Notes: generated by a model from the sequence alone, not told the origin. A DNA stretch of 34,651 nt from a virus (IMGVR_UViG_3300025132_000136:1-34651), one strand, 5' to 3'. Positions 1 through 24,288 are shown, numbered from the stretch's first letter. Numbers and translations are program-made.

Positions 1-3000
1 ATTGATATGTATAGGGGAAACCCTAATATGTTCAATGAAGAACAGCTTGACGAATTACAAGAATTAGCAAAGCAAACTAATCTTACTTTTAACAGGGTAT
101 CAACAGAATTTAATTTAAGAAATGTAGCTGAGTCTGCAGTTGGTGGTCTTGCAGAAGGTTTCACTACTATACCTATAGGCAGACAGCCTCGCAATACATA
201 TGAAGCATTAGCACATTCAATGGGACACCTTGTAGGTTTTGCTCCCGGTATTGCTGCTATCCCATTAAAAGGTTTGGCTGCAGGTGCATCTAGATTAGGA
301 ATGATGGGCGTTAAGAAAGCTTTTGAAAAAGGGGCATTTGGTGCTCAATCAATAAATAAGTTTTCAGTACCTATGATATTTGGTGATAAAGCTAGTGATC
401 TATTAAATAGAGGTATCGCTAAAGCTGGATTAGAATCATTAGATTATTTGAAGCGTGGTAGTGCTACACGTGGTATTATGAATGACGCTGTTCATTTAGG
501 TGTAGCTAGTGGTGCTAGTAGTATCTGGGGAGGACCAGATGAAGTATTAAATTCTATGATGCATGGTGCAATTGCAGGTGGTGCTTTTGGTGGGTTAGGA
601 AACTTTAGACAAATAGGCAACTTACTTAAAAGTAAGAATGTTCAAAATCATCAGCAAGCAGAGCAATTAATTAAAGCTGGTATAGGTTCTATGATAACTG
701 GATTACCTACCACATTACAAGAACAACCTATTGAAATACAAATGTACCAGTATTTACTGGGAGGATTTTTTGGATATAATTCAAGACCATCCCATGAAAA
801 GGCTGCACAAGAGTTTTTTCATGAAGATTTAGTTTCAGGCAGACCTGACAGAATTTTTTATCCCGAAAAGAACTCAGAATGGTCGAAACTTTCAAAAGAG
901 ACACAAGACTACGTCTATAAACAATCTGCCGACCAAGCTCGAATTAGCATGCTTAAAATGGGTTTATGGAAAAACGAGCAAGAATTAGATGTATATTTGA
1001 ATAATGAGGCTAAAAAACGTAAAGGTGACAACTATAAGCCCGAAGATGTAGATAATATAGCTAGGGAACAAGCAGGTAAAATAATACAAGGTGGTATTCT
1101 TGTTGATCTTGAGGCTTGGGAAAATCCTATGCCTGAAGATTTAGGTGACCCAAGGCAAAGTTCAAGACATCAAATGCTTGTTCAAATATTTAGAAAGCCA
1201 GATGGAACAATAAGTTCTGTAGAATCTATGCCAAGAGGTGGGGATTATCGTGGTCTTAGAATGGACTCTAAACATCCTATTGGAGAAAGTCGTACAGGTG
1301 AACCTGCGTGGGATATTCCTGCTGAGAAGTTTGATGGTAGAGAAATTATTACTTTGCAATATATTAATCCTAAGGGAGTTGAAGGTTCTAAAGGTACAAT
1401 ATCTGCATTTAAACCATTTGCTGGTAAGCCTAACTTTAAAGAAGGTAAGATAGATTACCATGTAACTCAAAAAGATTGGTTTGCTATTGAGGACCATCTT
1501 AATTCTCAGAATATGTATATAGATGGAGGTGTTAAGGATAAGGGTGTATTAAAAATTAGTCTTCATCATCCTGATATAAATCGTGTTGGTATAGATAATA
1601 TGATAGATACCCTAGCAAGAGGTATGCTGCAGGAAAGATTAGAGACAGAAAATTTAAGTGCTGGTGAGCAGAAGAGATTATTTAATGAATTAAAAAATGA
1701 AGTAAGAGAAAATTACGATTTTAGCGTAGCTAAAGAATACGAATGGTTTCAAGATGGTATTGAATCAGAAGGTATGATGCAGCATGTTAAAGATATGCAT
1801 GACAAGGCTTGGAAAAGTAATCTTTTATATGAAGCTGAAAGACACGGATTATTTACAAGAGGTGGGGAAGACTTTACTCAAGTAGGGAAGTTAATGAATA
1901 GCAAGGTTGGTGCTAGGAATGTTGTAGATAGAAATAAGCGTGAGCAGGTATTTCACACAAAGAATATTCCAACCAATTTTGAGATTAATGGAAAAAAAGA
2001 TTTAAACATAACAATACTTGAAGATTTTATTGCTAGTAAGGATGAACATCCTGATATGTGGTATAAAACTGAAATAACTAAGTCAGATGGTAGTAAGGAA
2101 ATAGTTGAAAGACCTTATGAATCTGCTACTGATGGTACAATATATATTAGAAGTTCTGTATGGAATGAACTTGTTAAGAAGTCTGGGTTTATGTCTGGTG
2201 ACAAGTTTGTAAATGATCTATTAGAAAAGACTGGAATGTTAAAGCCTACAATTGCTACTAAGTTAGATACGGGTGTAATGATTGGTAAGGCAGCAGGTCG
2301 CAGAGCAAGTGAGTCTATGGATAAGTTTATGGAAGCTAATGACTTAGATATGGTTCTAATGTCAAGTGCAGCTAAACATAGGGGTGGTATAAAAGCTGCA
2401 AAATATGACTACAAAGATGGAACATATTTTCCTATGGACCAAATGGATATCAGAAAGATGCCGATATCAGACCTTAGATTAGACCTTGGTGTTTATGAAA
2501 ATCCAAAGAAATCAAATGCTCCGCAGATGTTAGTACGTCAGTTGTTTGGTAATTTAAATGAAGGTCAACATCCGGGCGTAGTAGATCATGTATTTAAAAC
2601 AATATATGAGCCTATTATTAATGGTAAACCAGAGCAAAATAAGTTAATAGAAGATTATATTAAAAAGCCGTCTAAAGATTTTGACTTTAAAAATTTAGAT
2701 ATAGACAGCATTTCACTTAAGAATATTCATGAAATACTGGTTTCTGATGGTAAAAACCTTAAAAATTTAAGGCAGTATGTAAGAGACCATATTATGCGAG
2801 TAGATAAAGATAAGCTACAAGAAGGTGAAGCTGATCTTAATTTTACAGATGACCAATGGCGTGATTATATATTTAGAAACAAGCGTATCTTTAATACAGT
2901 TGGTACAACAGATGCAGTAGCTGATGGATTTAAAGCAACTAATAAGTTTTGGGAACACGCTTATAAAAGATATATAATAGACAGATATCTTAGACCTAAG

Positions 3001-6000
3001 TGGCAGTTTTCTGGTAAAGGATGGGCAGCACCTTACGATGTAGAGGTATTAAAAGATAATAAGGTTGAGGCAGGTACATTCTTAATGGATAACGGTAAGA
3101 AGAATATGCCTGTAGATTTTAATGCAGATATAATTAAGATATTTTTTCCTAAGAAAAAAGGTAACAAAGTTACTTTAGGTGAAGTTGTTGCTGCACAAAA
3201 AAGAATTGAACGACCTGAGAATGTAAACAAATTAAAATCACTTGGTGTATATAATAAAGCTAAAAAAGCATTAGATAAATTTGATTATGAATTTGTTGTT
3301 ATTCGAGTACCTGCTGATTCATCTAGTGGTGCTAGAGTATTAAGATTTAAAGGTTTTACAGGACAGGAAGGTGAAGCTATTGTAACGCATCCAAAAGATG
3401 ATGCGTATTTAGGTGGTATGGATAAAGATTCTGATTCAATGTTTGTTTACCACGGGTTTGATAAAAAAACTAAAGATGCTTACAATTCTGTTAAAAATGA
3501 ATGGGAAAAGAATGGTATTGTAATTGAAGGTAAGTCTAGTGAGTTAGATAAGGTATTTAATGAGCAAGCTAATGAAGCTCCATATTTACATGCGGCTAGT
3601 ATTCTATCTCCCTCTATGAGAAAAGAAGTAGCTCGCAATGTATATCAAGGTAATCTTGGTATAGGCTGGGCTATTAACTCAAGAATGACAGTATTATCTT
3701 GGATGGATATGGCTGCAGCTAATGGTGGTGAGCTTTCAGTTAAGGCACATAAAAAGAAAGGTTATGGGTTAGATTATAAATCTGATTTAGGTGAGTACGT
3801 ATTAAGATTAAAACCAGATTCTAGTTATAATGTAAGACGCTATGCTAGAGAAATGTTAAATAGGTCTGCTGATGCTGGTAACTATCCTAAGATGAGATCA
3901 TATACAAGATTTCCAGAGCAACTATTTAAACAAGCTTTTGATGTAGAGTATATTCCTCCAAAGTGGATGATGGACCCTAAGTATGACACTATGAGAAGTT
4001 CTTATTCTTCAGCAGATTTTAGAAACATGACAAACTCTACTGACTTAGGTAAGGTTCATAAGATGAATCAAACTATGAAACCTAATGCTAGATCTAAAGC
4101 AGAAGAAGGTTCTATGGAACTTCATGAGTTTCAAGAAAGACTTGCAGCAGAAACTTTAACGTCTGAGTCGTTTAAACATGAGCCTAAGAATTTAACTAGT
4201 TTAATAGCGAAAAAAGCTAAGGCTGATGGATTAGATAAGATGACATTTACTCATCCGTATCAATCTAATGTTAGGCTGTTAAGTGCATTAAGAGACATTA
4301 TAAATAAGGACCCGTTAGCTAAAGAATTAGATTTAATGATTGGTCTTTCTACTGAAAAGAATATTAGACAGGGATTAAATAAGGCTGCAATTGCAGGTGA
4401 AAAAAAAGATTGGAAGAATTTTTCTGAAATACTAAGAAAAGAAAATATTAAAATAGCAAGTTTTCTTTCTTTAGTTAGAAAGGCTCATGCTATAGAGCAG
4501 AGAATTTTATCAGAAGGTGGCAGCAAGCAAGATGTAACTAGGAATTTAAAGGTATTAGTTAAGGAAGCAGATAAGTTAAAATTAAAATATAGGACCATCG
4601 ATGATAATCCAGATGCAGAACATAAAAATAGTTCTTTTAATGACTATGATTCAGATGTTATTGAATTAAAAAATAGAATAAGGCAGCAACTTGGTGAACA
4701 AGGCATGAAGTCAGAGCCTTTTGAAGAGTACCTTGACCTTTATTTATTAAGTCCTTTTCTTAAATCTCAACCATTTGGATACCATAGTAGAATGCCGTGG
4801 CAGTCTAGAGCAATAAGCAATAAGGCTGTGCAAGAAGTATTTAAAGAATTAGATGTTGTAACAGAGATGGCAGGATTAGATGCAACTAAACAAATAGATA
4901 AGCTTGAAGGATTTAAAGATTATATGCATCAGCCCTCTGGTTACGCAAAGATCAACAGCAGTTTTTCTAAGTTTATGGGACAAGAATTTGTAGGAGATGT
5001 TGAGTTTGATGCTAGAATAAAAAAATTAAAAGACCGTATGGCAGAACATCCTTTCTGGGCTGAACATCCAGAGGATGCTTTTATTCAGTATACTACTGAG
5101 TTTGAAGGTGGTGTAGGTAGAGATTTTAGTACAATGACAAAGAATGATGTTAATAATCTATTAAGATTCTTTGACTACTATGACCCTAAAAGCAAGCAAA
5201 GCTGGATAGATAATTTTGTAAAAGACAACTTCCCTGCTACTAAGGATAGGGACCCGATGCGTATACAGAAAATCTTTTACTACAATAGACCAGCTACGTT
5301 AGATAAGAAGACTCTTGCTTATGAGGTTAATATATTTAAACAGGCTAATGTTCCTGTTAAGAGTAAAGATAGGGTAGTTATTAGAGATGTAAAAAGAATT
5401 ATGTCTACTCATGGAACAATGAGAGAATGGTTAAGTAAGATGGTGGTTCAATCTGAAGCTAAGGTAACTAGAGAATTAGATAAAATGGATGAAGGACCAT
5501 TTAGCAATCTTCAAAATCTTACTCCGAATGAACGTGTGGAATTAATGAATCATGTAGTAGATGTAATAGAGAAGAAGGTTAAGATAGAAGATATTCCAGA
5601 TTATTTAAATAAGAAATTTGAAATATCTACAGGTAAAGACCAGATAAAAACATTTACTGGTAAGGAAATGATTGAATCTTATGTGGGTAAGGTTAAGGCT
5701 GATTTAGAGCAGTTTGGTAATGAATATATTTATGCAACTAAAGATTGGAAATCTGTAGAAAGTGATATTGCAGCAGGTAAATCTGTTCAGGTATCAGATT
5801 ATATGAGATGGAATAAGGGTAAGTTTGACTTTAATAATTTTTATAAAAAGGTAGTTGAACCTGCTTGGCAAGGTAAGGATATAACAGAGATTCCTTTAGA
5901 AGCTATTTATAGAGCACAGTATGAGCATAAGCTTGAGCAAGTTATTAAAAATAAAAAGATAGATAACCCGTCTAAGTTTAGAAAACTATGGAGAAATAAC

Positions 6001-8193
6001 GGATTAAAGGATAAGAAAACTAAAGAGAAATTAGAGACTGCTTTTAAACCTATAGGCAGGAAGGATAAAGAAACTTATTTCCCCCATATGTTTAGATCAA
6101 ATCCTACAAAAGCAGAGAAAAGAATTCACGATGAGTTTTATAATAATCAATTAGAATTAGAATTAAGTCGGTTATTAAGTAACCCTAGTAACACTATTAA
6201 ATATTTAAAAGAGCAAGGCAAGCTATTAAATAAAGAATCTGGCGATAAATTAAATAAAAGACTTGAAGAATATGAAAAGACTAAAGATATTAATATTCTA
6301 AAAGAATTAATAGAGCCAGCTATAGTAGCTAAGTATCAATATTTAAGAGAAGGATTATCTCATCCAACTCAATATGGAGAGAGTCATATACATGAAGCAT
6401 TAACTCAGGTTGATATGTCTTCTGATGTTGCTGCTATTGTATCTGATTTAGTTAAAGTAGGATTCTTTTCTAGACCTAAGAATATATTAGAGAGACAAGT
6501 AGAAGAGAAGCCGGGATATATGAAGGAATATGATGCTATTAAAAGATATAAAGAAGGCATTATAAAATCACGCTTTAAAAATCTTGCTGCTCTTATGGGA
6601 GATAGACAGATAGAGTTAATGACAGATAAAAATCCTTTTGGTAAGTATACTAAAGACCATGCAGAGTTCTACAGAATGTATCTTCGTGATTCTCTTGGAT
6701 ATAAGACTACTTTTTCTGATTGGGTTTTGAAGGCTATGGAGAGTAGTGACCCATTAAAGTTAAAAAAGAATATGTATTATCAGACTAGCGACCATGAAAT
6801 GATTCAAAAGCTAGATCGTATATTAAAGTTTTTTAAGACAGATAAGCTGCCGTTTAAATTATCTAGTAATGATAAGGCTAGGTCTGAACAACTTTCTAGA
6901 ATAATACATGATATGGGTGCACTAGAGGCAAAGTATCAGTTACTTACGCTACTTGCTAATACTGGTGTAGCTACTGGTAACTTATTTGGTGGTTCTTTGA
7001 ACACAGTTACTAAGACTGGTTTAAGAAACTTTACTAGAGCAATGAGTTTTAAATACCTTGAGAAGAATTTACTCAAAGATGTTGATGGTAATTATCAATT
7101 AAAGTTTAAAAATGGTAAGTCTGTAAAGACTAAAGAAGACTTGAAGAAATGGGCGATTGAGAGGGGAGTTGTTGAACAATATATAAAGAACGAACTTGAT
7201 TTCAACCCAAAATTAAGTACCATAAAAAACAAAAAATCAATACAAGAATTTGCTAAGGATTTTCAGAAGTTATTATTAAGGAATCCTGATCCTAATAAAG
7301 AGACTATTATGGAGCTTGCCAGAAGGCATGGAATAGATGAAGCTATTCTTTTTGCAGGTTCATTTCCTATGCAAGCATCAGAAAGATGGTTGAGAATAAA
7401 TTCATTCTTATCACATATGTTGCAAATGAGGGATAGTTTTAATGGAGTGTCAGGTAAGGTCGATATGAACAGCGAAGCTGTGGTTAAACACGCTTTAAAA
7501 GGCGTTGAGGCTACTCAGTTTGTTTATCATAGCGTTGGTAGAAGTGCTTTCATGCGTACAGCTACTGGTAAGGTACTTACTAGGTTTAAAAATTATGTAC
7601 AAAACCAAATGGCTTTTCAAAGAGAAATTTATAAGCAAGCTAAGATGTATGGCTTTGAGCCGGGTACAAAAGCACATGATGATTTTCAAAGACTATTTGT
7701 TATTAATGCAATGCTAATGGCGTTAGGCTCTGCTTATGCTTACAGCTTATTTGATGTAGCTACTCCTCCTCCATTTGATTGGATGGTAGAGACATCTGAA
7801 TTGCTTTGGGGCGATGCTAGAGAGCGAGAGAGAGCTTTTTTTGGTACATATCCAAGGGCTATAGCACCTTTACAAATCATAACACCGCCTATTGCAAGAA
7901 TACCTCAAAGTTTAGTAATGTTGCTTAATGGAGATTGGGAAAGATTTGCCGATTACCAAGCGTGGACTCTTTTCCCGTTTGGTAGGTTTGCTAGGTCCGT
8001 TGATAAAACATTCAACGAGCCTTATGGCACTACGGTTGGTAGAGGCATGCAACAATTTTTTAGATTACCTACTGACAAGTTTGTACGAAGGTATGAGAAA
8101 AAACAAATAGAAGATATGCGTAAAGATTATATAGCGACTACACTTGATGACCTTGACCAAGAAGGTGAAGAGTGGGATAATAAGGAAAATTAA
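1..8193 (+). CDS. Giant virion-associated RNA polymerase-like protein (two-barrel type), 5' end possibly outside window
   Basis: Very long uninterrupted frame, first Met at 7, open to the window edge, so the true start may lie upstream. Numbering from that Met, residues 1100-1143 carry a pattern like the catalytic barrel of cellular RNA polymerase beta' and eukaryotic-type RdRPs: RVP at 1100-1102 (compare RQP), then HP and GGMDKDSD, giving D1139, D1141 and D1143 as the DxDxD metal triad. K790 in SSAAKHRGG is a candidate lysine of the first barrel. LGIGWAINSR (about 1217-1226) and SADAGNYPK (about 1287) follow, roughly where RdRP-type enzymes have LG...N.h and aVDfpK. The N-terminus has Gly/Ala-rich, possibly membrane-active stretches (about 65-98 and 165-200) and the C-terminus a hydrophobic segment (2563-2584). 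Size, placement and membrane-like segments resemble giant virion proteins such as crAss-like phage vRNAP. RNAP identity is motif-based inference; the remaining 2,000 residues are unassigned. Confidence 0.8.
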   Translation: MDMYRGNPNMFNEEQLDELQELAKQTNLTFNRVSTEFNLRNVAESAVGGLAEGFTTIPIGRQPRNTYEALAHSMGHLVGFAPGIAAIPLKGLAAGASRLGMMGVKKAFEKGAFGAQSINKFSVPMIFGDKASDLLNRGIAKAGLESLDYLKRGSATRGIMNDAVHLGVASGASSIWGGPDEVLNSMMHGAIAGGAFGGLGNFRQIGNLLKSKNVQNHQQAEQLIKAGIGSMITGLPTTLQEQPIEIQMYQYLLGGFFGYNSRPSHEKAAQEFFHEDLVSGRPDRIFYPEKNSEWSKLSKETQDYVYKQSADQARISMLKMGLWKNEQELDVYLNNEAKKRKGDNYKPEDVDNIAREQAGKIIQGGILVDLEAWENPMPEDLGDPRQSSRHQMLVQIFRKPDGTISSVESMPRGGDYRGLRMDSKHPIGESRTGEPAWDIPAEKFDGREIITLQYINPKGVEGSKGTISAFKPFAGKPNFKEGKIDYHVTQKDWFAIEDHLNSQNMYIDGGVKDKGVLKISLHHPDINRVGIDNMIDTLARGMLQERLETENLSAGEQKRLFNELKNEVRENYDFSVAKEYEWFQDGIESEGMMQHVKDMHDKAWKSNLLYEAERHGLFTRGGEDFTQVGKLMNSKVGARNVVDRNKREQVFHTKNIPTNFEINGKKDLNITILEDFIASKDEHPDMWYKTEITKSDGSKEIVERPYESATDGTIYIRSSVWNELVKKSGFMSGDKFVNDLLEKTGMLKPTIATKLDTGVMIGKAAGRRASESMDKFMEANDLDMVLMSSAAKHRGGIKAAKYDYKDGTYFPMDQMDIRKMPISDLRLDLGVYENPKKSNAPQMLVRQLFGNLNEGQHPGVVDHVFKTIYEPIINGKPEQNKLIEDYIKKPSKDFDFKNLDIDSISLKNIHEILVSDGKNLKNLRQYVRDHIMRVDKDKLQEGEADLNFTDDQWRDYIFRNKRIFNTVGTTDAVADGFKATNKFWEHAYKRYIIDRYLRPKWQFSGKGWAAPYDVEVLKDNKVEAGTFLMDNGKKNMPVDFNADIIKIFFPKKKGNKVTLGEVVAAQKRIERPENVNKLKSLGVYNKAKKALDKFDYEFVVIRVPADSSSGARVLRFKGFTGQEGEAIVTHPKDDAYLGGMDKDSDSMFVYHGFDKKTKDAYNSVKNEWEKNGIVIEGKSSELDKVFNEQANEAPYLHAASILSPSMRKEVARNVYQGNLGIGWAINSRMTVLSWMDMAAANGGELSVKAHKKKGYGLDYKSDLGEYVLRLKPDSSYNVRRYAREMLNRSADAGNYPKMRSYTRFPEQLFKQAFDVEYIPPKWMMDPKYDTMRSSYSSADFRNMTNSTDLGKVHKMNQTMKPNARSKAEEGSMELHEFQERLAAETLTSESFKHEPKNLTSLIAKKAKADGLDKMTFTHPYQSNVRLLSALRDIINKDPLAKELDLMIGLSTEKNIRQGLNKAAIAGEKKDWKNFSEILRKENIKIASFLSLVRKAHAIEQRILSEGGSKQDVTRNLKVLVKEADKLKLKYRTIDDNPDAEHKNSSFNDYDSDVIELKNRIRQQLGEQGMKSEPFEEYLDLYLLSPFLKSQPFGYHSRMPWQSRAISNKAVQEVFKELDVVTEMAGLDATKQIDKLEGFKDYMHQPSGYAKINSSFSKFMGQEFVGDVEFDARIKKLKDRMAEHPFWAEHPEDAFIQYTTEFEGGVGRDFSTMTKNDVNNLLRFFDYYDPKSKQSWIDNFVKDNFPATKDRDPMRIQKIFYYNRPATLDKKTLAYEVNIFKQANVPVKSKDRVVIRDVKRIMSTHGTMREWLSKMVVQSEAKVTRELDKMDEGPFSNLQNLTPNERVELMNHVVDVIEKKVKIEDIPDYLNKKFEISTGKDQIKTFTGKEMIESYVGKVKADLEQFGNEYIYATKDWKSVESDIAAGKSVQVSDYMRWNKGKFDFNNFYKKVVEPAWQGKDITEIPLEAIYRAQYEHKLEQVIKNKKIDNPSKFRKLWRNNGLKDKKTKEKLETAFKPIGRKDKETYFPHMFRSNPTKAEKRIHDEFYNNQLELELSRLLSNPSNTIKYLKEQGKLLNKESGDKLNKRLEEYEKTKDINILKELIEPAIVAKYQYLREGLSHPTQYGESHIHEALTQVDMSSDVAAIVSDLVKVGFFSRPKNILERQVEEKPGYMKEYDAIKRYKEGIIKSRFKNLAALMGDRQIELMTDKNPFGKYTKDHAEFYRMYLRDSLGYKTTFSDWVLKAMESSDPLKLKKNMYYQTSDHEMIQKLDRILKFFKTDKLPFKLSSNDKARSEQLSRIIHDMGALEAKYQLLTLLANTGVATGNLFGGSLNTVTKTGLRNFTRAMSFKYLEKNLLKDVDGNYQLKFKNGKSVKTKEDLKKWAIERGVVEQYIKNELDFNPKLSTIKNKKSIQEFAKDFQKLLLRNPDPNKETIMELARRHGIDEAILFAGSFPMQASERWLRINSFLSHMLQMRDSFNGVSGKVDMNSEAVVKHALKGVEATQFVYHSVGRSAFMRTATGKVLTRFKNYVQNQMAFQREIYKQAKMYGFEPGTKAHDDFQRLFVINAMLMALGSAYAYSLFDVATPPPFDWMVETSELLWGDARERERAFFGTYPRAIAPLQIITPPIARIPQSLVMLLNGDWERFADYQAWTLFPFGRFARSVDKTFNEPYGTTVGRGMQQFFRLPTDKFVRRYEKKQIEDMRKDYIATTLDDLDQEGEEWDNKEN

Positions 8194-8195
8194 TT

Positions 8196-9041
8196 ATGGG
8201 ACAAAATCATTCACATTCAAATGGTCACAATCATAGTAATACTAATTCGCTAAACTATCAAAATAGACCTCATTTACCTAGGTATCAATATGATCCTGAG
8301 CTTTTAGCAAAGTTTACTCAAAATGCAAGACCTGCTTTGTTAGATTTTGTAAAACAACAAAATAGATATGGTGGAGAAGCACGTAGGTCTGTAGATGATA
8401 TTGTAAGTAGAGTTAAAAATCAAGAACTTAAAGCTTATGCAGTACCAGAACAGATGTATGGCGAAATCAGGGGAGATACTGGAGGTCTTTCTTCTGGTGG
8501 TTTTCATTGGGGAAATGAAATTTATATGAAAGGCACAGGTGGTAGTAGTGGTATTGCACATGAATTAGGGCATGAGTTATATGGTCATAAAGGAACAAGC
8601 GAGTCTGTTCCTAAAATGAATTGGTATAATAAATTAGATAGAAAATTAAAAGGCTGGTTGCCATCTTTTTCAAAGTACGCTGAAAGACCTAAATTTACTT
8701 CAATTGATAATACAGCTAGAAGAGAAGATGCATATTCAAGTTTTTCTGATAGAGATCAATATAATAAAAGAATGAGAACAGGAGATTATAATCCTAAATT
8801 TGCAGATGCTCCATTTGACCACTTAGGTAGTAAAATGTGGGAATTACAAGACCAAGCAACTAAAGATGCTATGTTATCTAATGTTCTTAGGACAGTAAAA
8901 ACAAAAGGCGGGGATTATGGTAAGTATGATAAGCGAAGTTTAAAAGCTAAAGATTTTAGATATGCTTTTAAAGAAGCTAGAGAAAAAGGTTTAGACCAGT
9001 TTGACTGGGATGGTAGAAAATATTCTACTGAATTAGGATAA
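8196..9041 (+). CDS. Putative zincin metallopeptidase
   Basis: 281 residues. The core motif is HELGHELYGH at 122-131: H122 and H126 as zinc ligands, E123 as catalytic base, H131 a possible third ligand. The spacing to the third His is one residue shorter than in metzincins (HExxHxxGxxH), so it is not a clear metzincin; the family is open. Residues 1-20 are rich in His, Asn and Ser and may be disordered or bind metal. The rest is polar with no signal peptide or membrane segment. It starts 2 nt after the stop of the giant virion-type gene, preceded by a purine-rich AAGGA, so co-expression is likely. A virion-processing or host-directed protease is an inference. Confidence 0.65.
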   Translation: MGQNHSHSNGHNHSNTNSLNYQNRPHLPRYQYDPELLAKFTQNARPALLDFVKQQNRYGGEARRSVDDIVSRVKNQELKAYAVPEQMYGEIRGDTGGLSSGGFHWGNEIYMKGTGGSSGIAHELGHELYGHKGTSESVPKMNWYNKLDRKLKGWLPSFSKYAERPKFTSIDNTARREDAYSSFSDRDQYNKRMRTGDYNPKFADAPFDHLGSKMWELQDQATKDAMLSNVLRTVKTKGGDYGKYDKRSLKAKDFRYAFKEAREKGLDQFDWDGRKYSTELG

Positions 9042-12440: not shown

Positions 12441-12781
12441 TAAGTTGCCGCCAATCCCCAAAATACAAAAGCTTTAATATTTCTTTTGCCTTTATATCCA
12501 TTCATTTCTTTTAAATGTTTTAGAAATGCACCTTTAATTTCTATACAATTCCAATTAGACCACTTTGTTCCATCTAATGTTTCTTCGTAGAAATCATCCC
12601 ATTTTTTTGTTCCATATCTTGGATGATCTTTTCTCATAAAGAATCCTTCTGATGTAGTTATTGTACCATTATAACCATCGTGTCCATATTCATATAGTTC
12701 TTCTTCAACAAGTTGATTATATGCTTCTGATGCATTTTTATATTTACCTATTTCTATGTATAATTTATCCCATGCTCCCAT
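12440..12781 (-). CDS. Hypothetical phage protein
   Basis: 113 residues, rich in Tyr, Trp and Gly, with YGHDGYNGTITTSEGF and a basic C-terminal half. No family recognised. A strong GGAGG lies 5 nt before the ATG. It is the first gene after the terminator hairpin that follows the primase-helicase gene. Confidence 0.75.
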   Translation of the reverse strand: MGAWDKLYIEIGKYKNASEAYNQLVEEELYEYGHDGYNGTITTSEGFFMRKDHPRYGTKKWDDFYEETLDGTKWSNWNCIEIKGAFLKHLKEMNGYKGKRNIKAFVFWGLAAT

Positions 12782-12806
12782 GTTTCCTCCATAATTATTA
12801 GGGAAA

Positions 12807-12875
12807 TAAAGGGTATTACACTTGTAATCATTTGGGTACGGAGTCCAGTTGATATACTAATAGTAACACCCTTTA
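12807..12875 (-). terminator. Long-loop hairpin downstream of primase-helicase gene
   Basis: A 13-bp stem pairs 12807-12819 with 12863-12875. One position is G-U only when the leftward strand is transcribed and a mismatch otherwise, which fits leftward RNA. Leftward the stem is followed by TTTCCC rather than a clean U-run. The 43-nt loop holds a smaller hairpin (ATTAC, ACTT, GTAAT). It starts 2 nt after the stop codon. Confidence 0.55.
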
Positions 12876-12877
12876 AT

Positions 12878-14665
12878 TTATAGTTGTTCAAACGAGAATG
12901 TTTCGTAATTGAATGTCATTCTTACTTCAAAAGGGCTTTCATCCCTAGTTCCAAGAGTAGAAATAATCCTTATCTTTTCGTTATCGCTTTGTTGCTCAAA
13001 GCCGATTACTTTATCAGCTTTTTGTTCGATAACAGAGTTACCTTTAAAGCTGTGAATACCAAGTCTTTCGCCATTCTCAAGTTGCTGTGCAGCATACTTT
13101 GAAATATGAGATATACCAAATATGATAATCTTATATTTATTTGCTAAAGACTTTAATTCTTTAATGATAAAGTTTTGTCTTTCATATTCTTCTTGGTAGT
13201 ATTTAGCTGGAATAGTATCTATAGTATCTATTACCAGCATTTTAGGATTATATGTTTCAATTATCTTATGATAATCTCTTATATCAGGAGAATCATCAGT
13301 TACGCTTATATGATTCATTCCCTCTTTTAAGTATTGATCGTATTCTTCGTTCCATTCTTTAAAGTTATCTTTATTTAAGCCTATGATACATTGGAAGAAT
13401 CTTCTATTTATTAGATTCTCACCAACTTCTAAGGACATAAATGCTGTCTTTACATCTGGAACTTGAGATACAACCCATTGAACAAATGCTGTTTTACCTA
13501 TTTTAGTGTTTCCACCAAGAATAACAAGGTCTCCAGCGTTAAAGATATAATCGTCTTGTATGTCAACTAAATCTTTAAAGTTGAATGTGTTGTTATACTT
13601 TGCGTCTTCTATGTATTGTTTGTATGTTTCGATAATTTCATCAATATTCTTTAACTTAATATTGGAACCATAATCTTTTGATTTAAAGTATTTACACTTA
13701 GGGTCACAATGTGCCTCAAGTACTTCATCTTGACAATTAAATTCATATGGTCTACTGAATGTATCTACTACAATACGTTTTATTTCTGATTTTTCAAAGT
13801 TATCAGGATATGTATCAATCCATTGTTTTCCAAGTAACATACATTGGTCTTGAGTAAAGCCTTTTCTACGCCAAATAGATACCAGTCTTAATAATGTTAT
13901 GTGCCTATTTTCAACGGCAGCACCTTTATTAAAGATATGCTGACCGCAGGTTACATCTGCATTAGTCTGATATGTGGCGTTTTCAAGAACAGTACGTTCC
14001 TCTTTTACTTCTTTTTTAGTATGTTCCATTGGTTTCCAGATAGTTGTTACTCCGTTAACTACTGGTGGTCTATCAAATCTAAGCTCTTTACAATAATCCA
14101 TTATATTATCATATGACAATGCTAGGAATTGTGAATGAGTTAAATATGTTTTATATAGATTTGTTTTTTTATTTAGTGAGAAAGGTAAACGAATTAGCCT
14201 TTTTGAGTCGTAGATCAAATCTATTGAATTTCCAAAGTCTCTTGCAATCGTAGCTTTTACTTCTCTTGCAATATCTGCTGATGGTTTAAAACCATATAGG
14301 TCCGGGATTACAACGTGAAAACCTCTGCCGCTAAACCATATACTTATATGCTCTGTTTTGCAGCCTAGCTTTACTAGTTTTTTCATTAACTTATTTGTCT
14401 CTTGTTTTATATCGGTACTTTCATCTGCACCTTTATCAACATCAAAGACAATCTTGTCAATTGCTTGTACTCCCCTATATCCTTTGATACTTCCAGTATC
14501 TTTAATATGGTCTTTTATGTCTTTTTGATAAAGAAACATACTTCTGTACACTTCTTTACCAATATTTCCATCAACTATTCTTCCTACTTCGTTATATGGT
14601 ACTACTTGATTTCTAGACGATACATCTCCAATTGCTACTTCGACATAATAGTCTTCATAGTTCAT
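12878..14665 (-). CDS. Primase-helicase fusion (AEP-type primase + DnaB/RecA-like helicase)
   Basis: About 595 residues. The N-terminal part has archaeo-eukaryotic primase signatures: FDVD (about 74-77, metal-binding Asp), SGRGFHVV (about 112-119) and RLIRLPFSLNKKT (from about 156). A Cys cluster C311-x8-C320-x3-C324 may bind zinc between domains. The C-terminal part is a RecA-fold ATPase: GGNTKIGKT (about 384-392, Walker A), MLVIDTID (about 476-483, Walker B) and FGISHISK. The protein would unwind the fork and lay down primers. The ATG at 14665 lies 5 nt after GGAG; a GTG at 14671 overlaps that site and is less likely. It sits beside the ssDNA-binding and ERF genes, making a replication cluster. 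Confidence 0.88.
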   Translation of the reverse strand: MNYEDYYVEVAIGDVSSRNQVVPYNEVGRIVDGNIGKEVYRSMFLYQKDIKDHIKDTGSIKGYRGVQAIDKIVFDVDKGADESTDIKQETNKLMKKLVKLGCKTEHISIWFSGRGFHVVIPDLYGFKPSADIAREVKATIARDFGNSIDLIYDSKRLIRLPFSLNKKTNLYKTYLTHSQFLALSYDNIMDYCKELRFDRPPVVNGVTTIWKPMEHTKKEVKEERTVLENATYQTNADVTCGQHIFNKGAAVENRHITLLRLVSIWRRKGFTQDQCMLLGKQWIDTYPDNFEKSEIKRIVVDTFSRPYEFNCQDEVLEAHCDPKCKYFKSKDYGSNIKLKNIDEIIETYKQYIEDAKYNNTFNFKDLVDIQDDYIFNAGDLVILGGNTKIGKTAFVQWVVSQVPDVKTAFMSLEVGENLINRRFFQCIIGLNKDNFKEWNEEYDQYLKEGMNHISVTDDSPDIRDYHKIIETYNPKMLVIDTIDTIPAKYYQEEYERQNFIIKELKSLANKYKIIIFGISHISKYAAQQLENGERLGIHSFKGNSVIEQKADKVIGFEQQSDNEKIRIISTLGTRDESPFEVRMTFNYETFSFEQL

Positions 14666-20966: not shown

Positions 20967-20994
20967 TAGTACTCCTTAATAAATTAGAAACCTA

Positions 20995-21025
20995 AAAAAA
21001 AGGGAAAGGGTGCTAGCCCTTTCCC
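20995..21025 (-). terminator. Intrinsic terminator
   Basis: Perfect 9-bp stem GGGAAAGGG (21002-21010) / CCCTTTCCC (21017-21025), loop TGCTAG, followed leftward by seven T. It lies 8 nt after the stop of the 110-residue gene. Confidence 0.85.
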
Positions 21026-21033
21026 ATATATAC

Positions 21034-21366
21034 TTAACTGTTAGCCACAATTAAGAAGCGATAACCGGTAACATTACCACTTTTATCTTTCTTCTCGTAT
21101 GTAGACTTACTACTAGATGATATAGTTAAGCCCTTTGTCTCTAAAGACTCCTGAGCTTTCTCTATATCGTTAACACTAGCACTAGCATTAACCCACATAT
21201 TATAGAAAACAGGTGGTGTTTCATCATCTTCACTTTGAGGTAATACAGATGCTTTCACATCTTTCACTTCAATTAGTGTATTAACCCATTCATCGCCATC
21301 CTGCTCGGATTTCTGGAAAGATATTGTTGAAAAGAACTTTCCCATTATTTCACTTATATGTAACAT
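21034..21366 (-). CDS. Hypothetical phage protein
   Basis: 110 residues with MGKFFSTISFQKSEQDGDEW, an acidic middle (QSEDDETPP) and a beta-type C-terminus (SGNVTGYRFLIVANS). No family recognised. GGAG lies 6 nt before the ATG. It is bracketed by hairpins on both sides, so it may be a single-gene transcript. Confidence 0.75.
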   Translation of the reverse strand: MLHISEIMGKFFSTISFQKSEQDGDEWVNTLIEVKDVKASVLPQSEDDETPPVFYNMWVNASASVNDIEKAQESLETKGLTISSSSKSTYEKKDKSGNVTGYRFLIVANS

Positions 21367-21383
21367 AGTTACTCCTTTGTTTA

Positions 21384-21408
21384 TTAGTTATGAAATGAAA
21401 AAAAAGGG
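21384..21408 (-). promoter_or_regulatory. CCC-N15-TAACTAA element, gene starting at 21366
   Basis: TAACTAA (21384-21390) lies 17 nt before the ATG; CCC (21406-21408) is exactly 15 nt further upstream and merges with a T-run. Confidence 0.5.
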
Positions 21409-21507
21409 TACTGGATATTAGGATGGTGCACAATGTTTTTTAAGAAGGTGCCCTTGGCAAGTAAAGGGCGAGCGTAAGCGAGCACCTTTTTTGAAATAAG
21501 CCCAAAG
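21409..21507. other. Gene-free spacer with nested stems
   Basis: Contains GCCCTT (21450-21455) / AAGGGC (about 21464-21469), an outer GGTGC / GCACC pair, a rightward TTTTTT (about 21487-21492) and the direct repeat GCGAGC. Leftward, AAGGG-type sequence can pair with the CCCTT next to 21406. No credible gene; a short RNA or a double terminator is possible. Confidence 0.4.
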
Positions 21508-21541
21508 TAAAAAAGAGGGACTAGATTTCTCTAATCCCTCT
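21508..21541 (-). terminator. Intrinsic terminator
   Basis: A 12-bp stem pairs 21514-21525 with 21530-21541, loop TTTC, followed leftward by TTTTT. One position is U-G in leftward RNA only. It starts 12 nt after the stop of the 71-residue zinc protein. Confidence 0.8.
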
Positions 21542-21553
21542 ATGTGCCCACAA

Positions 21554-21769
21554 CTAATTAAATTGTGCTTTGTATTCAGCGTAGTCTCTACATTTATCCA
21601 TAGTATCCATTTCTGGTACTTCATCATCATTATATTGCATAATATTCTTTATAGTTATGTGAGCATCGTTTGCAAACACTTCGTTATTCAAAAACTTAAG
21701 GCAATTTATAGAGCAACAACCTTTAAGATTTGTATCACTAAGCGTTCCACAATTAAGACATCTATGCAT
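21554..21769 (-). CDS. Small Cys-rich zinc-finger protein
   Basis: 71 residues starting MHRCLNCGTL. C4-x2-C7 and C18/C19 with C23 give a compact zinc site in the first 25 residues; the rest is acidic and helical. GGAGG before the ATG. Flanked by hairpins on both sides. Function unknown. Confidence 0.75.
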   Translation of the reverse strand: MHRCLNCGTLSDTNLKGCCSINCLKFLNNEVFANDAHITIKNIMQYNDDEVPEMDTMDKCRDYAEYKAQFN

Positions 21770-21782
21770 ATGTCCTCCTTTA

Positions 21783-21807
21783 TTTGTTAAAGAATGATAA
21801 AAAAGGG
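21783..21807 (-). promoter_or_regulatory. CCC-N15-TAACAAA element, gene starting at 21769
   Basis: TAACAAA (21783-21789, one base off TAACTAA) lies 13 nt before the ATG; CCC (21805-21807) is 15 nt further upstream. Confidence 0.45.
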
Positions 21808-21826
21808 TAAGCTAATGCTCACCCTT
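21799..21826 (-). terminator. Intrinsic terminator overlapping a stop codon
   Basis: A 10-bp stem pairs 21803-21812 with 21817-21826, loop TAAT, then six T leftward. One position is G-U in leftward RNA only. The stop codon of the upstream gene (21812-21814) lies inside the hairpin. Confidence 0.8.
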
Positions 21827-22171
21827 ATCATCCAATTTCCATCTTAAATCATCTTCTCTCCAAGGATTAAACCTTTGACTTATCTCTTGATGACTTAATT
21901 CAACTCGTTGATTACTAGGCTCATACTTCTTTACCACTTCTAGATTTAATTTATCTATGGTTTTAGGATTACAAGCACAAGTAGAACAGATAGATGTAGT
22001 TACTCTTTCTGTCGTTAGTTTATCATATGGTTGCGACTCTACGAATTTAAACTTCCATATCTTAAAGATAATCTTATCTCTAAAGGCAACTATTTTCTTT
22101 TGTACATCAATTTTACAGATGTATTCAGCTAATGACATAAAAGGGATTTTACAAAGATAACAACACTTCAT
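21812..22171 (-). CDS. Cys-rich putative zinc-binding protein
   Basis: 119 residues. C4-x2-C7 at the start and C62-x2-C65 (plus C67) in ICSTCACNP make a four-Cys site split by a basic hydrophobic segment (KKIVAFRDKIIFKIWKFKF). The C-terminus is charged. GGAG lies 7 nt before the ATG. Function unknown. Confidence 0.75.
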   Translation of the reverse strand: MKCCYLCKIPFMSLAEYICKIDVQKKIVAFRDKIIFKIWKFKFVESQPYDKLTTERVTTSICSTCACNPKTIDKLNLEVVKKYEPSNQRVELSHQEISQRFNPWREDDLRWKLDDKGEH

Positions 22172-22186
22172 TATTTACTCCATATT

Positions 22187-22211
22187 TTAGTTATAAGAAC
22201 ATAAAAAAGGG
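22187..22211 (-). promoter_or_regulatory. CCC-N15-TAACTAA element, gene starting at 22171
   Basis: TATAACTAA with TAACTAA at 22187-22193, 15 nt before the ATG; CCC (22209-22211) is 15 nt further upstream. TATAAC is also near a sigma70 -10 hexamer, but no TTGACA-like -35 lies 17 nt upstream. Confidence 0.5.
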
Positions 22212-22235
22212 TAAGCCATACATTGACCTACCCTT
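22203..22235 (-). terminator. Intrinsic terminator
   Basis: An 11-bp stem pairs 22207-22217 with 22225-22235, with two G-U pairs possible only in leftward RNA, 7-nt loop, then six T leftward. It starts 7 nt after the upstream stop. Confidence 0.8.
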
Positions 22236-22242
22236 GTGATTA

Positions 22243-22704
22243 TTATTGCTCCTTTGATGGATTCATTGGAGCAGTATCATATACATCGCCTAAAAGCCTA
22301 CCTCTTTTCTTTAGTCTAAAGTAGAGATAGCTGAGTTCTGCATATTTTAGATTAACTTCCATATGTTCCTCAACATATGATAATGTATGTACTAAACTAT
22401 CAATCATTTTCATATAGTTTATAACACTATCATTAGTTTCCAATTGCAATTTAGATATAACCTTGCAATTCTCTTCTGATTCATTGTATTTAACCCATAG
22501 TTCTTGATATCTAGCACGTAGCCTACGTATATCAGCCTCAAGATCATCTTTCTTTATGTTAAGATTAGCACATATTTGCTTAAACTTTAATAGTTTAGCC
22601 TCTAATCTTACTATTTTAAGATGATGTTGATACAATAGATGAGCGAGAAATACCATAGTAAAGGTTACTATTAAACTCATAGTTATCATTAAAACATCTA
22701 ACAT
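22243..22704 (-). CDS. Membrane-anchored coiled-coil protein
   Basis: 153 residues. Residues 3-25 (DVLMITMSLIVTFTMVFLAHLLY) are a clear membrane span; a charged helix at about 30-80 (LEAKLLKFKQ, LEADIRRLRARYQELW) looks like a coiled coil. Topology resembles inner-membrane spanins, but it sits among early-type genes with no lysis neighbours, so a membrane-bound early protein is equally possible. GGAGG before the ATG. Confidence 0.75.
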   Translation of the reverse strand: MLDVLMITMSLIVTFTMVFLAHLLYQHHLKIVRLEAKLLKFKQICANLNIKKDDLEADIRRLRARYQELWVKYNESEENCKVISKLQLETNDSVINYMKMIDSLVHTLSYVEEHMEVNLKYAELSYLYFRLKKRGRLLGDVYDTAPMNPSKEQ

Positions 22705-22721
22705 TATTACACCTCCGTGTG

Positions 22722-22747
22722 TTATTTATGGACAACAAAAAAGAGGG
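22722..22747 (-). promoter_or_regulatory. CCC-N16-TAAATAA element, gene starting at 22704
   Basis: TAAATAA (22722-22728, one base off TAACTAA) lies 17 nt before the ATG; CCC (22745-22747) is 16 nt further upstream. Confidence 0.45.
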
Positions 22748-22766
22748 TAAGCTAGTGCTTACCCTC
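22737..22766 (-). terminator. Intrinsic terminator
   Basis: Perfect 10-bp stem GAGGGTAAGC (22743-22752) / GCTTACCCTC (22757-22766), loop TAGT, followed leftward by six T. It lies 56 nt after the upstream stop; the stretch between holds no gene. Confidence 0.85.
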
Positions 22767-22822
22767 GGTACTTACCACAACCCAATTATGGGAGTCTTTT
22801 ACGTGGTCTTACGTCATAATTA

Positions 22823-23017
22823 TTAATCATCGTTGTTGCATGAGCTGTGATAGCCATATATATAAGCTTCGTAAGCTAGGCTATCGCAGCAAGGGCAACC
22901 ATCGTGACTGAAGTGCAATGGTTCGTCATCTGGACAAGCTATCTTAGCAAGATAACTACGATAACGGAAAGGAAGTGGAAGGTTGATGTATAAGAACAAT
23001 AAGATATTATTAAGCAT
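22823..23017 (-). CDS. Small Cys-rich protein
   Basis: 64 residues. A hydrophobic N-terminus (MLNNILLFLYINLPLPF) could be a membrane anchor. C28, the cluster GCPCCDS (C41, C43, C44) and C60 suggest metal binding. Only a weak GAG ribosome site is seen. No family recognised. Confidence 0.6.
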   Translation of the reverse strand: MLNNILLFLYINLPLPFRYRSYLAKIACPDDEPLHFSHDGCPCCDSLAYEAYIYGYHSSCNNDD

Positions 23018-23031
23018 ATTATGTCTCGTAT

Positions 23032-23057
23032 TTAGTTATGAAGAACATATAAAAGGG
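23032..23057 (-). promoter_or_regulatory. CCC-N16-TAACTAA element, gene starting at 23017
   Basis: CATAACTAA with TAACTAA at 23032-23038, 14 nt before the ATG; CCC (23055-23057) is 16 nt further upstream. Here the CCC is not part of the neighbouring hairpin. Confidence 0.5.
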
Positions 23058-23069
23058 TATGAAAATAGG

Positions 23070-23101
23070 TGGGGACAGTTCTGTTGCCAAGCCTGTCCCC
23101 A
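23070..23101 (-). terminator. Hairpin after the DUF4313-like gene
   Basis: A perfect 9-bp stem pairs TGGGGACAG (23070-23078) with CTGTCCCCA (23093-23101), 14-nt loop. Leftward it is followed by CCTATTTTC, a weaker T-tract than at the other sites. Confidence 0.65.
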
Positions 23102-23113
23102 ATGCTCCGAGTC

Positions 23114-23446
23114 TTAGTCGGTGGACACGTTCAGTTTCCATACCGGAACATCCTCGTAGCCGTGTAGTACTGACTTACCTGTATCTGTGAAGATATCAGT
23201 TATGTCTAGTAGTTCCACGAGCTGTGAGTTCTCGCTCCATAGCTTGACAAAGAACTCGTCTTCTTCAAGCATATGTGCGTGCTCTGGTAGGTTAACTGAT
23301 AGTGTAGCGTATGGACACCAGTATCCGTCATCAGTTCCCTCAAGGCGAACCGATAGAGCGTTACCTTTACTATATGTATCGGTAATAGCTCTTAGATCAC
23401 AAGGACCATACGTTGTCACTAACGTGCCTATGTTAATGTACACCAT
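23114..23446 (-). CDS. DUF4313-like phage protein
   Basis: 110 residues. The core YATLSVNLPEHAHMLEEDEF followed by FVKLWSENSQLVELL resembles DUF4313 proteins (ATLTVNLP...), a small phage/mobile-element family of unknown function. By eye its DNA is richer in G+C than its neighbours, hinting at a different origin. No clear GGAG precedes the ATG; a GTG follows two bases later in another frame. Confidence 0.7.
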   Translation of the reverse strand: MVYINIGTLVTTYGPCDLRAITDTYSKGNALSVRLEGTDDGYWCPYATLSVNLPEHAHMLEEDEFFVKLWSENSQLVELLDITDIFTDTGKSVLHGYEDVPVWKLNVSTD

Positions 23447-23460
23447 AGGATAGATAAGGG

Positions 23461-23484
23461 TAAGTTATGTAGTGTAAAAAAAGG
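23461..23484 (-). promoter_or_regulatory. CC-N15-TAACTTA element, gene starting at 23446
   Basis: TAACTTA (23461-23467, one base off TAACTAA) lies 14 nt before the ATG; CC (23483-23484) is 15 nt further upstream. Confidence 0.45.
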
Positions 23485-23510
23485 AACTAGGTGATTAGCC
23501 TAGTCCCTTT
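23476..23510 (-). terminator. Intrinsic terminator
   Basis: A 12-bp stem pairs 23480-23491 with 23499-23510, loop TGATTAG, followed leftward by seven T (partly in the stem). One pair is G-U in leftward RNA only. It starts 5 nt after the upstream stop. Confidence 0.85.
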
Positions 23511-23515
23511 TGTTA

Positions 23516-23686
23516 TTAGGTATTACACATACTGATTTCATCAATAAGTGTACTTCCCCAACCCTTACGTTCCAGCTTAATATCATCCATCTTATTCATA
23601 ATGCGTTGGTGTTCTTCCTTAGTATGTGGAATACAATCCACACATAAGAAACAATACTCATCAGCTGTGGGTAATGTTATGCCCAT
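23516..23686 (-). CDS. 56-residue hypothetical protein, first leftward gene
   Basis: 56 residues starting MGITLPTADE; three Cys in EYCFLCVDC (C12, C15, C18) plus C54 may bind metal, followed by a charged helix (KEEHQRIMNKMDDIKLERK). GGAG 6 nt before the ATG. It is the first leftward gene after the divergent region, so probably among the earliest expressed. Family not recognised. Confidence 0.7.
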   Translation of the reverse strand: MGITLPTADEYCFLCVDCIPHTKEEHQRIMNKMDDIKLERKGWGSTLIDEISMCNT

Positions 23687-23701
23687 AATATCTCCTTTCG
23701 G

Positions 23702-23727
23702 TTAGTTAATGAACAGGTATATAGGGG
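23702..23727 (-). promoter_or_regulatory. CCCC-N15-TAACTAA element, first leftward gene
   Basis: TTAACTAA with TAACTAA at 23702-23708, 15 nt before the ATG; CCCC (23724-23727) is 15 nt further upstream. No gene lies upstream, so here the element cannot merely be the end of a terminator. A 6-bp hairpin (TACTCT / AGAGTA) lies just beyond it. Confidence 0.55.
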
Positions 23728-24038
23728 TAGTACTCTGATGTAAGAGTAGGGATTAGTATAGTATACTATGCGTGTGTATGTACATAGGATGTGAGGACTG
23801 GGCAGGGTGGTGAGTAAGCTTACTGGTGTGTGGGGTATGCGTAGCATAGGGCACGCCAGCCAAGCTCGGGTGGGTGAGAAGTACTGGGCGAGGCACGAGC
23901 ACATCTAACTCAACCCATATAGTCAACTCAACGTAGAACCAACCCTCAACCGTAATTTAACGGGGGGTGGGTCTAACTCATCTTACTCACATACACTCTA
24001 GATATATTTTTTTAACTGAAACTCTCCTATATTAAGCT
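23728..24038. other. Divergent intergenic region with several palindromes
   Basis: About 310 nt without a credible gene between leftward and rightward blocks. Symmetric sites: ATAGTATACTAT (23758-23769), AGTAAGCTTACT (23813-23824) and TATGCGTAGCATA (23836-23848). The rightward strand is G-rich at about 23790-23900, while a C-rich part follows with CAACTCAAC-type repeats. A TAACTGA (24013-24019) lies 19 nt before the first rightward ATG and may be a relative of the leftward element. Likely an operator/promoter region, possibly an origin. Confidence 0.5.
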
Positions 24039-24239
24039 ATGCCAAAGAAGCTAACATATGATATTTTCAACGGAGATACTGGATCGTGGGAAGAAAAGCG
24101 TGTAAATGAGGATGAGTATCTTGAAGAGATGACTAAATTAGACGTAGAGAAAGAGATACTAGACGCTGAACTCCATGTAATAAATACTATTATAGAACAA
24201 TATTTAAATGACCCGGAGACTTGGGAGAGTAGGGATTAA
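24039..24239 (+). CDS. Hypothetical acidic protein
   Basis: 66 residues, acidic, helical in its second half (EEMTKLDVEKEILDAELHVI). First rightward gene after the divergent region. No ribosome site is obvious before the ATG. Might be a small regulator or packaging-associated protein; nothing specific supports this. Confidence 0.65.
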   Translation: MPKKLTYDIFNGDTGSWEEKRVNEDEYLEEMTKLDVEKEILDAELHVINTIIEQYLNDPETWESRD

Positions 24240-24243
24240 CACT

Positions 24244-24288
24244 AAGTAATATATACAAGTAAGTATATATTACTTCTAGTACTAGAAG
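24244..24288. repeat. Two perfect inverted repeats before the terminase genes
   Basis: A 13-bp inverted repeat (AAGTAATATATAC, 24244-24256, with GTATATATTACTT, 24263-24275) around 6 nt is followed at once by a 16-nt perfect palindrome CTTCTAGTACTAGAAG (24273-24288). They fill the spacer before the small-terminase candidate. Possible roles: operator, terminator without T-run, or packaging (pac/cos) recognition site. Confidence 0.6.

Follow-up and report, generated by a model that had tools for sequence, protein, structure and literature searches.

Candidate early promoters of a predicted virion RNA polymerase in a family of uncultured phages

Organisation of the locus

The stretch IMGVR_UViG_3300025132_000136:1-34651 is a contig of an uncultured phage from a virus record, and its full length of 34,651 bases is called the window here. 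Genes for terminase, portal and capsid run rightward from 24299, small genes run leftward from 23686, and the gene of a giant protein with 2,728 residues (7-8193) closes the late arm and has the orientation of the late genes. The subject of this analysis is an element repeated in front of the small (early) genes. An earlier reading, made from the sequence alone, had described it as TAACTAA preceded by CC or CCC at seven gene starts, and had interpreted it as a phage-specific promoter with -35/-10-like anatomy.

As a description this pattern could be reproduced completely. At 7/7 starts TAACTAA with at most one change is found 13-17 nucleotides (nt) 5' of the ATG, with CC another 15-16 nt upstream; it is exact at 21366, 22171, 23017 and 23686 and carries one change at 21769 (TAACAAA), 22704 (TAAATAA) and 23446 (TAACTTA). 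Shuffled sequences gave a mean of 0.04 such starts and a maximum of 2 in 1000 shuffles, and a mean of 0.19 if the CC condition was dropped (still 7/7 in the window). Because this count is post hoc, an independent test with relatives was performed.

Searches with the major capsid protein reveal hundreds of relatives in IMG/VR but no tblastn match among 50,697 phage records, and neither this protein nor the polymerase described below led to cultured relatives in the phage collection. The terminase shows only about 25% identity to assorted phages, and the primase-helicase used as bait retrieved two relatives only. Those relatives that reach the early arm share the layout of the window: the terminase-portal-capsid block is read one way, the short early genes and the replication genes are read the other way, and beyond these the giant protein is encoded in the orientation of the late genes. 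The products of the early genes gave no informative family matches.

The conserved core

A motif was trained by expectation maximization (EM) on four relatives only, with the window excluded, and was then used to search the window on both strands. Its consensus is GCTTACCCTTTTTTTTGTTTTT, single strong sites read GCTTACCCTTTTTTTTGTGTTTATTAAC, and its score reached 240 as compared to 64-73 for shuffled sequences. In this blind scan the top seven window matches lie before genes 22171, 21769, 20966, 23017, 22704, 21366 and 23446, all on the minus strand. The element has a core of about 15 nt, (T)ACCC-TT(A/T)T-NNN-TG, located around 35-45 nt upstream of each short early gene, and its strong part is ACCC, T-tract and TG, not TAACTAA. 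From the sequence-only reading the phage-specific promoter without a TTGACA box survives, but its -35/-10 anatomy is not supported; conservation is highest where the CCC end of the element runs into the T-rich tract and the TG. Six of its seven genes have a strong core; gene 20966, which lacks TAACTAA, had been missed, and the core of 23686 is weak. The TAACTAA copies before 10517, 14665 and 19076, formerly regarded as partial matches, are not accompanied by a core at any of these places, and those before 10517 and 19076 lie within upstream coding sequence.

The motif search upstream of early genes in related genomes, which had been proposed as a check, shows that the motif recurs across relatives and is nearly confined to the early arm in sense direction. 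This is true of 36 of the 41 matches across five window-lineage genomes. A sister lineage has TTCCTTTATNTNTGG in the same place (EM score 424 vs 73), with a core of the form TTCCTTTAT.. instead of the ACCCTT.. of the window lineage, and two further records carry TTCTCTTTTTTTTATG and TCTCCTTTATTTATA. When aligned at their C residues, the motifs of both lineages merge into one pattern, CCYTTWTNTNTG, whose density across the family is 15.6-fold higher in early-sense DNA than in the remaining DNA. The element is therefore repeated before early genes, rare elsewhere and kept in relatives, as expected for a phage-specific early promoter; for the distant records G027 and G028 a shared motif was not established. 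Three cores are without a directly following open reading frame (L124 11811, L124 12522 and L021 3118) and possibly give rise to short non-coding early RNAs.

At 23446 the core TTACCCTTATCTATCCTA spans 23463-23446, so that the ATG taken before as gene start sits inside it. This overlap suggests that the TAACTTA found there is coincidental and that the gene probably begins with GTG 23419, where ATTAACATAGG followed by the GTG matches the usual leader layout.

The giant protein as a putative RNA polymerase

Homologues of the giant protein share the motif IR(V/T)P(A/S)D...SG...YLGG(A/M)DKDSDS, in which D1139, D1141 and D1143 as well as the upstream RxP are invariant in 15 homologues. We take this DxDxD/RxP motif to match the catalytic barrel of the beta' subunit of cellular RNA polymerases, and in the giant protein DxDxD is located in a double-psi barrel. 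AlphaFold models were obtained for residues 560-1660 (predicted template-modelling score, pTM, 0.75) and for about 639-1319 (pTM 0.74). With both models the fold search returned the virion RNA polymerase of phage phi14:2 (6vr4) first, with E values of 5e-8 and 1e-8, and among the matches listed the lower ranks are occupied by QDE-1 or by cellular and phage polymerase (beta') chains, i.e. by RNA polymerases throughout. A viral structure library yielded crAss-like proteins and, weakly, phi14:2. The models thus show an overall RNA polymerase fold in a single chain. Direct sequence search against PDB, PHROGs and Pfam gave no match for the window protein itself, and two-barrel virion polymerases have been described as extremely divergent (PMC7886860).

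From fold search, invariant motif and position among the late genes we conclude that the 2,728-residue protein is, as judged from its models, a two-barrel RNA polymerase and that, by analogy, it is very likely packaged in the virion. It is the only recognised RNA polymerase of the phage family. Directly behind its gene (8196-9041) a protein of 281 residues with a peptidase-like HExxH motif (HELGHELYGH) is encoded.

Probable early promoters of a putative virion-packaged polymerase

Taken together, the copies of the repeated element are probably early promoters for a two-barrel RNA polymerase carried in the virion; the phage lineage concerned has no cultured relative in the phage collection. The motif, its placement and conservation, its independence from the hairpin and the polymerase fold were all computed; the link between enzyme and motif is indirect, and we infer their pairing. 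Most likely the single-chain enzyme with its double-psi beta-barrels, encoded by gene 7-8193, would read the core. The virion would carry this enzyme and inject it together with the DNA, as in crAss-like phi14:2 and Thermus phage P23-45, and also in N4, whose enzyme is unrelated. The core is followed by an A-rich leader, usually with TAACTAA, and by a GGAG ribosome-binding site, and each early gene would form its own transcription unit.

Several points weigh against this reading. The first early gene, 23686, where a strong promoter would be expected, has a weak core only (3.9 bits). In the fold search the TM-scores were modest (0.33-0.40), and comparing sequence profiles with the phi14:2 polymerase gave no significant result (hhalign probability 0.5%). 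Packaging in the virion rests on analogy and gene position. That no T7-type RNA polymerase family was found in 15 records speaks for the reading, but as the PF00940 control was silent too, this absence is weak evidence. Finally, the host RNA polymerase may use an unrecognised phage factor.

Many phages employ the host RNA polymerase together with an alternative sigma factor, and TAACTAA loosely resembles a -10 element, so the cores could be promoters for the host enzyme with a host or phage-encoded alternative sigma factor. We consider this unlikely, since no -35/-10 pair is present, no sigma factor occurs among the genes scanned, a predicted phage polymerase of the virion class is present, and the core differs among lineages of one phage family. 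Ordinary sigma70 promoters (TTGACA/TATAAT hexamers 16-18 nt apart) were rejected as a candidate, because they are not enriched (10 found, 14.8 expected).

TAACTAA and the transcript start

TAACTAA is enriched between core and ATG, with 18/31 sites against 6.9 expected in the window lineage and 20/38 against 7.9 in the sister lineage. Across the whole window it is not over-represented (17 copies vs 13.7 expected) and in relatives it is loosely placed, so it was discarded as the main signal. There is still the variant that CCC acts as a -35-like and TAACTAA as a -10-like box, with transcripts starting 5-10 nt downstream of TAACTAA. In its favour is the fairly tight spacing between core and TAACTAA in the window lineage (17.2 nt, standard deviation (sd) 1.8). 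In the sister lineage, however, the distance to the core is loose (sd 7.1 nt) and that to the ATG tighter (sd 3.8), gene 20966 has a strong core but no TAACTAA, leader hairpins begin at the core TG, and a transcript beginning there would have no more than about a dozen nt ahead of the ATG, so that the ribosome-binding site would be cut off or abutted. To this variant we attach little probability. As TAACTAA varies in distance from the core but holds its distance to the ATG in the sister lineage, it looks like a weaker leader element between core and ribosome-binding site rather than a -10 box.

Stems of at least 5 base pairs starting exactly at the core TG were found nine times in the sister lineage (0.6 in shuffles), where some genomes are closely related, so that not every site counts as independent; the window's own lineage has none of these stems. 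Because these 5' leader hairpins begin at the TG, and because of the spacing of TAACTAA, the transcript start is likely to be at or just after the core TG. It would thus lie upstream of TAACTAA and not, as previously predicted, 5-10 nt after it.

Core and terminator

In about half of the sites of the window lineage the CCC ends a G+C-rich hairpin and is directly followed by the T-tract, as in an intrinsic terminator. Since intrinsic terminators are also over-represented (6 found vs 1.5 expected), the element might be nothing but the terminator of the preceding gene, to which CCC and T-run would belong. We judge this to be very unlikely. Cores without a hairpin at the CCC (17 of 36 in the window lineage, e.g. 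that of 23017 with a stem of 0) are present in every genome of this lineage, and with half of the cores hairpin-less the core is not just a terminator, as the sequence-only reading had rightly maintained. The plain terminator was rejected on the basis of the hairpin-less training set: a matrix derived solely from the relatives' hairpin-less sites places the same seven window sites first, with 13.3-19.3 bits (next match 8.5). Moreover, in relatives the core also occurs before first genes that no other gene precedes, and the trailing TG and the leader are foreign to terminators.

Position 6 of the core is T in 19/19 hairpin sites and A in 7/17 hairpin-less sites of the window lineage. This is what one would expect of a promoter that accepts either A or T at this position and a terminator that requires T, and it suggests that the same bases serve both signals. 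Downstream of another gene, a GGGTAAGC-type arm would pair with the TTACCC of the promoter itself, whose T-rich stretch would act as U-tract, so that one gene's terminator overlaps with the promoter of the gene that follows. Tentatively, the CCC-T-tract element might even function as a stop-start mark, at which the injected polymerase stops at hairpin and T-tract and starts anew on these very bases. If this were true, transcription of the early arm as consecutive single-gene units would precede the synthesis of any phage protein. A terminator hairpin without core lies after gene 21769 (21514-21541), and a spacer of ~100 nt precedes the 21366 core.

Hairpins flank many cores and N4 is the classic phage with a virion RNA polymerase (PMC4496689), but N4-type promoters with an extruded DNA hairpin as recognition element are highly improbable, since the obligatory inverted repeat is missing at the CCC of 17/36 window-lineage cores, a stem beginning at the TG is seen in none of this lineage's cores, and the predicted enzyme is two-barrel and not of the T7/N4 class.

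Coordinates and neighbouring features

Table 1. Promoter cores, leader elements, hairpins and genes in the window
Feature	Position	Strand	Remark
Core before gene 21769, TTACCCTTTTTTATCATT	21793..21810	-	rank 1 in scan with hairpin-less motif, 19.3 bits
Core before gene 22171, TTACCCTTTTTTATGTTC	22197..22214	-	16.8 bits; 23.3 with full motif
Core overlapping 23446 ATG, TTACCCTTATCTATCCTA	23446..23463	-	16.6 bits, no hairpin at CCC
Core before gene 22704, TTACCCTCTTTTTTGTTG	22733..22750	-	15.8 bits
Core before gene 21366, GTACCCTTTTTTTTCATT	21394..21411	-	15.4 bits, no hairpin at CCC
Core before gene 20966, TTTCCCTTTTTTTTAGGT	20990..21007	-	14.2 bits; 21.4 with full motif
Core before gene 23017, ATACCCTTTTATATGTTC	23043..23060	-	13.3 bits, no hairpin at CCC
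Weak divergent core before first early gene 23686, CTACCCCTATATACCTGT (CTACCCCTATATACCTG)	23713..23730	-	3.9 bits; tentative assignment
TAACTAA leader element, gene 21366	21384..21390	-	
TAACAAA leader element, gene 21769	21783..21789	-	
TAACTAA leader element, gene 22171	22187..22193	-	
TAAATAA leader element, gene 22704	22722..22728	-	
TAACTAA leader element, gene 23017	23032..23038	-	
TAACTAA leader element, gene 23686	23702..23708	-	
Terminator hairpin of preceding gene	22743..22766	-	3' arm and T-tract common to 22704 core
Terminator hairpin	22207..22235	-	3' arm and T-tract common to 22171 core
Terminator hairpin	21803..21826	-	3' arm and T-tract common to 21769 core
Terminator hairpin	21002..21025	-	3' arm and T-tract common to 20966 core
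Hairpin upstream of 23017 core, distinct from core	23071..23101	-	seen in sequence; stem 0 at CCC
Terminator-like hairpin and T-tract after gene 23686, distinct from 23446 core	23483..23507	-	seen in sequence
Early gene, probable corrected start GTG 23419, ATTAACATAGG in front	23114..23419	-	suggested by core overlapping 23446 ATG
Predicted virion RNA polymerase, 2,728 residues	7..8193	+	AlphaFold2 model pTM 0.75; top PDB match 6vr4
Predicted catalytic double-psi barrel IRVPADSSSG...GGMDKDSDSM, residues 1099-1150	3301..3456	+	D1139, D1141, D1143

The spacer after the primase-helicase gene (window 12780-12878; L124/L125, L127, L090, L091, L093) contains a hairpin in most lineages; in some it is a conserved GATAGATTCCGCACTATC stem-loop, and the sister lineage has GGGCACAGATTCCTTTATTTGTGCCC with the promoter core in the loop. 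Between the divergent arms, the non-coding region 23945-24015 shows CGGGGGGTGGGTCTAACTCATC followed by ATATATTTTTTT, strongly conserved in the window, L124 and L128, and is perhaps a late promoter or origin. Related plus-strand copies, AGTAGGGATTAGTATA and AGTAGGGATTAACACTA, are found at 23747-23765 and 24229-24252 and are kept in relatives; one of them lies shortly before gene 24299.

A 46-kb phage contig in the Prochlorococcus single-cell genome AG-436-M02 (G032 contig C10; L138, L141-L143) encodes relatives of the terminase (69%), capsid (61%) and polymerase (33%) and has TCTCTTTTTTTT-type sites before early genes. This may point to cyanobacteria as hosts of some members of the family, or the phage may have been co-sorted.

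Comparison with known systems

Early promoters of virion RNA polymerases are a known kind of signal, and virion polymerases with dedicated early promoters have been described for N4 (PMC4496689), phiKZ/AR9 (PMC5312081) and P23-45 (PMC10770324). The phage family, the divergence of its enzyme, the promoter and the promoter-terminator overlap appear to be new within the searched collections and literature, although an earlier report of a phi14:2 promoter is possible; the crAss-like phage literature that was checked makes no mention of phi14:2 polymerase promoters or of the DNA signal of a crAss-type two-barrel virion polymerase. What emerges is a virion-polymerase system that seems to have escaped annotation in uncultured marine phages, with one relative on a Prochlorococcus single-cell contig, and a case of promoters and terminators using the same bases. 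The family offers an enzyme prediction together with a sharp promoter prediction, and both vary naturally from lineage to lineage, so that promoter recognition is directly testable.

The closest structural match is the phi14:2 polymerase, which is likewise a giant single chain with DxDxD and whose gene sits among virion protein genes. It has no detectable sequence similarity to the window protein, and its phage belongs to the Crassvirales with a 100-kb genome, whereas the records analyzed here are mostly 35-50 kb (one 89 kb). In P23-45 the virion two-barrel polymerase gp96 was assigned to a repeated AT-rich motif before pre-early genes, comparable to the situation described here, and a special terminator motif is also known (PMC10770324). 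P23-45 differs as a Thermus siphovirus with another motif and with gp96 fused to the tail tape measure; in the family described here promoter and terminator overlap.

The virion polymerase of N4 has a T7-like fold. Like the enzyme proposed here it is giant, packaged in the virion and dedicated to early genes, with about 3,500 residues (PMC12633501), but it depends on obligatory hairpin promoters (PMC4496689). With phiKZ and AR9 the family shares an extended T/A-rich conserved element near the start site, the AR9 early consensus being AAATATATATTAT-N6-G (PMC5312081), whereas those jumbo phages possess a multisubunit enzyme and another consensus.

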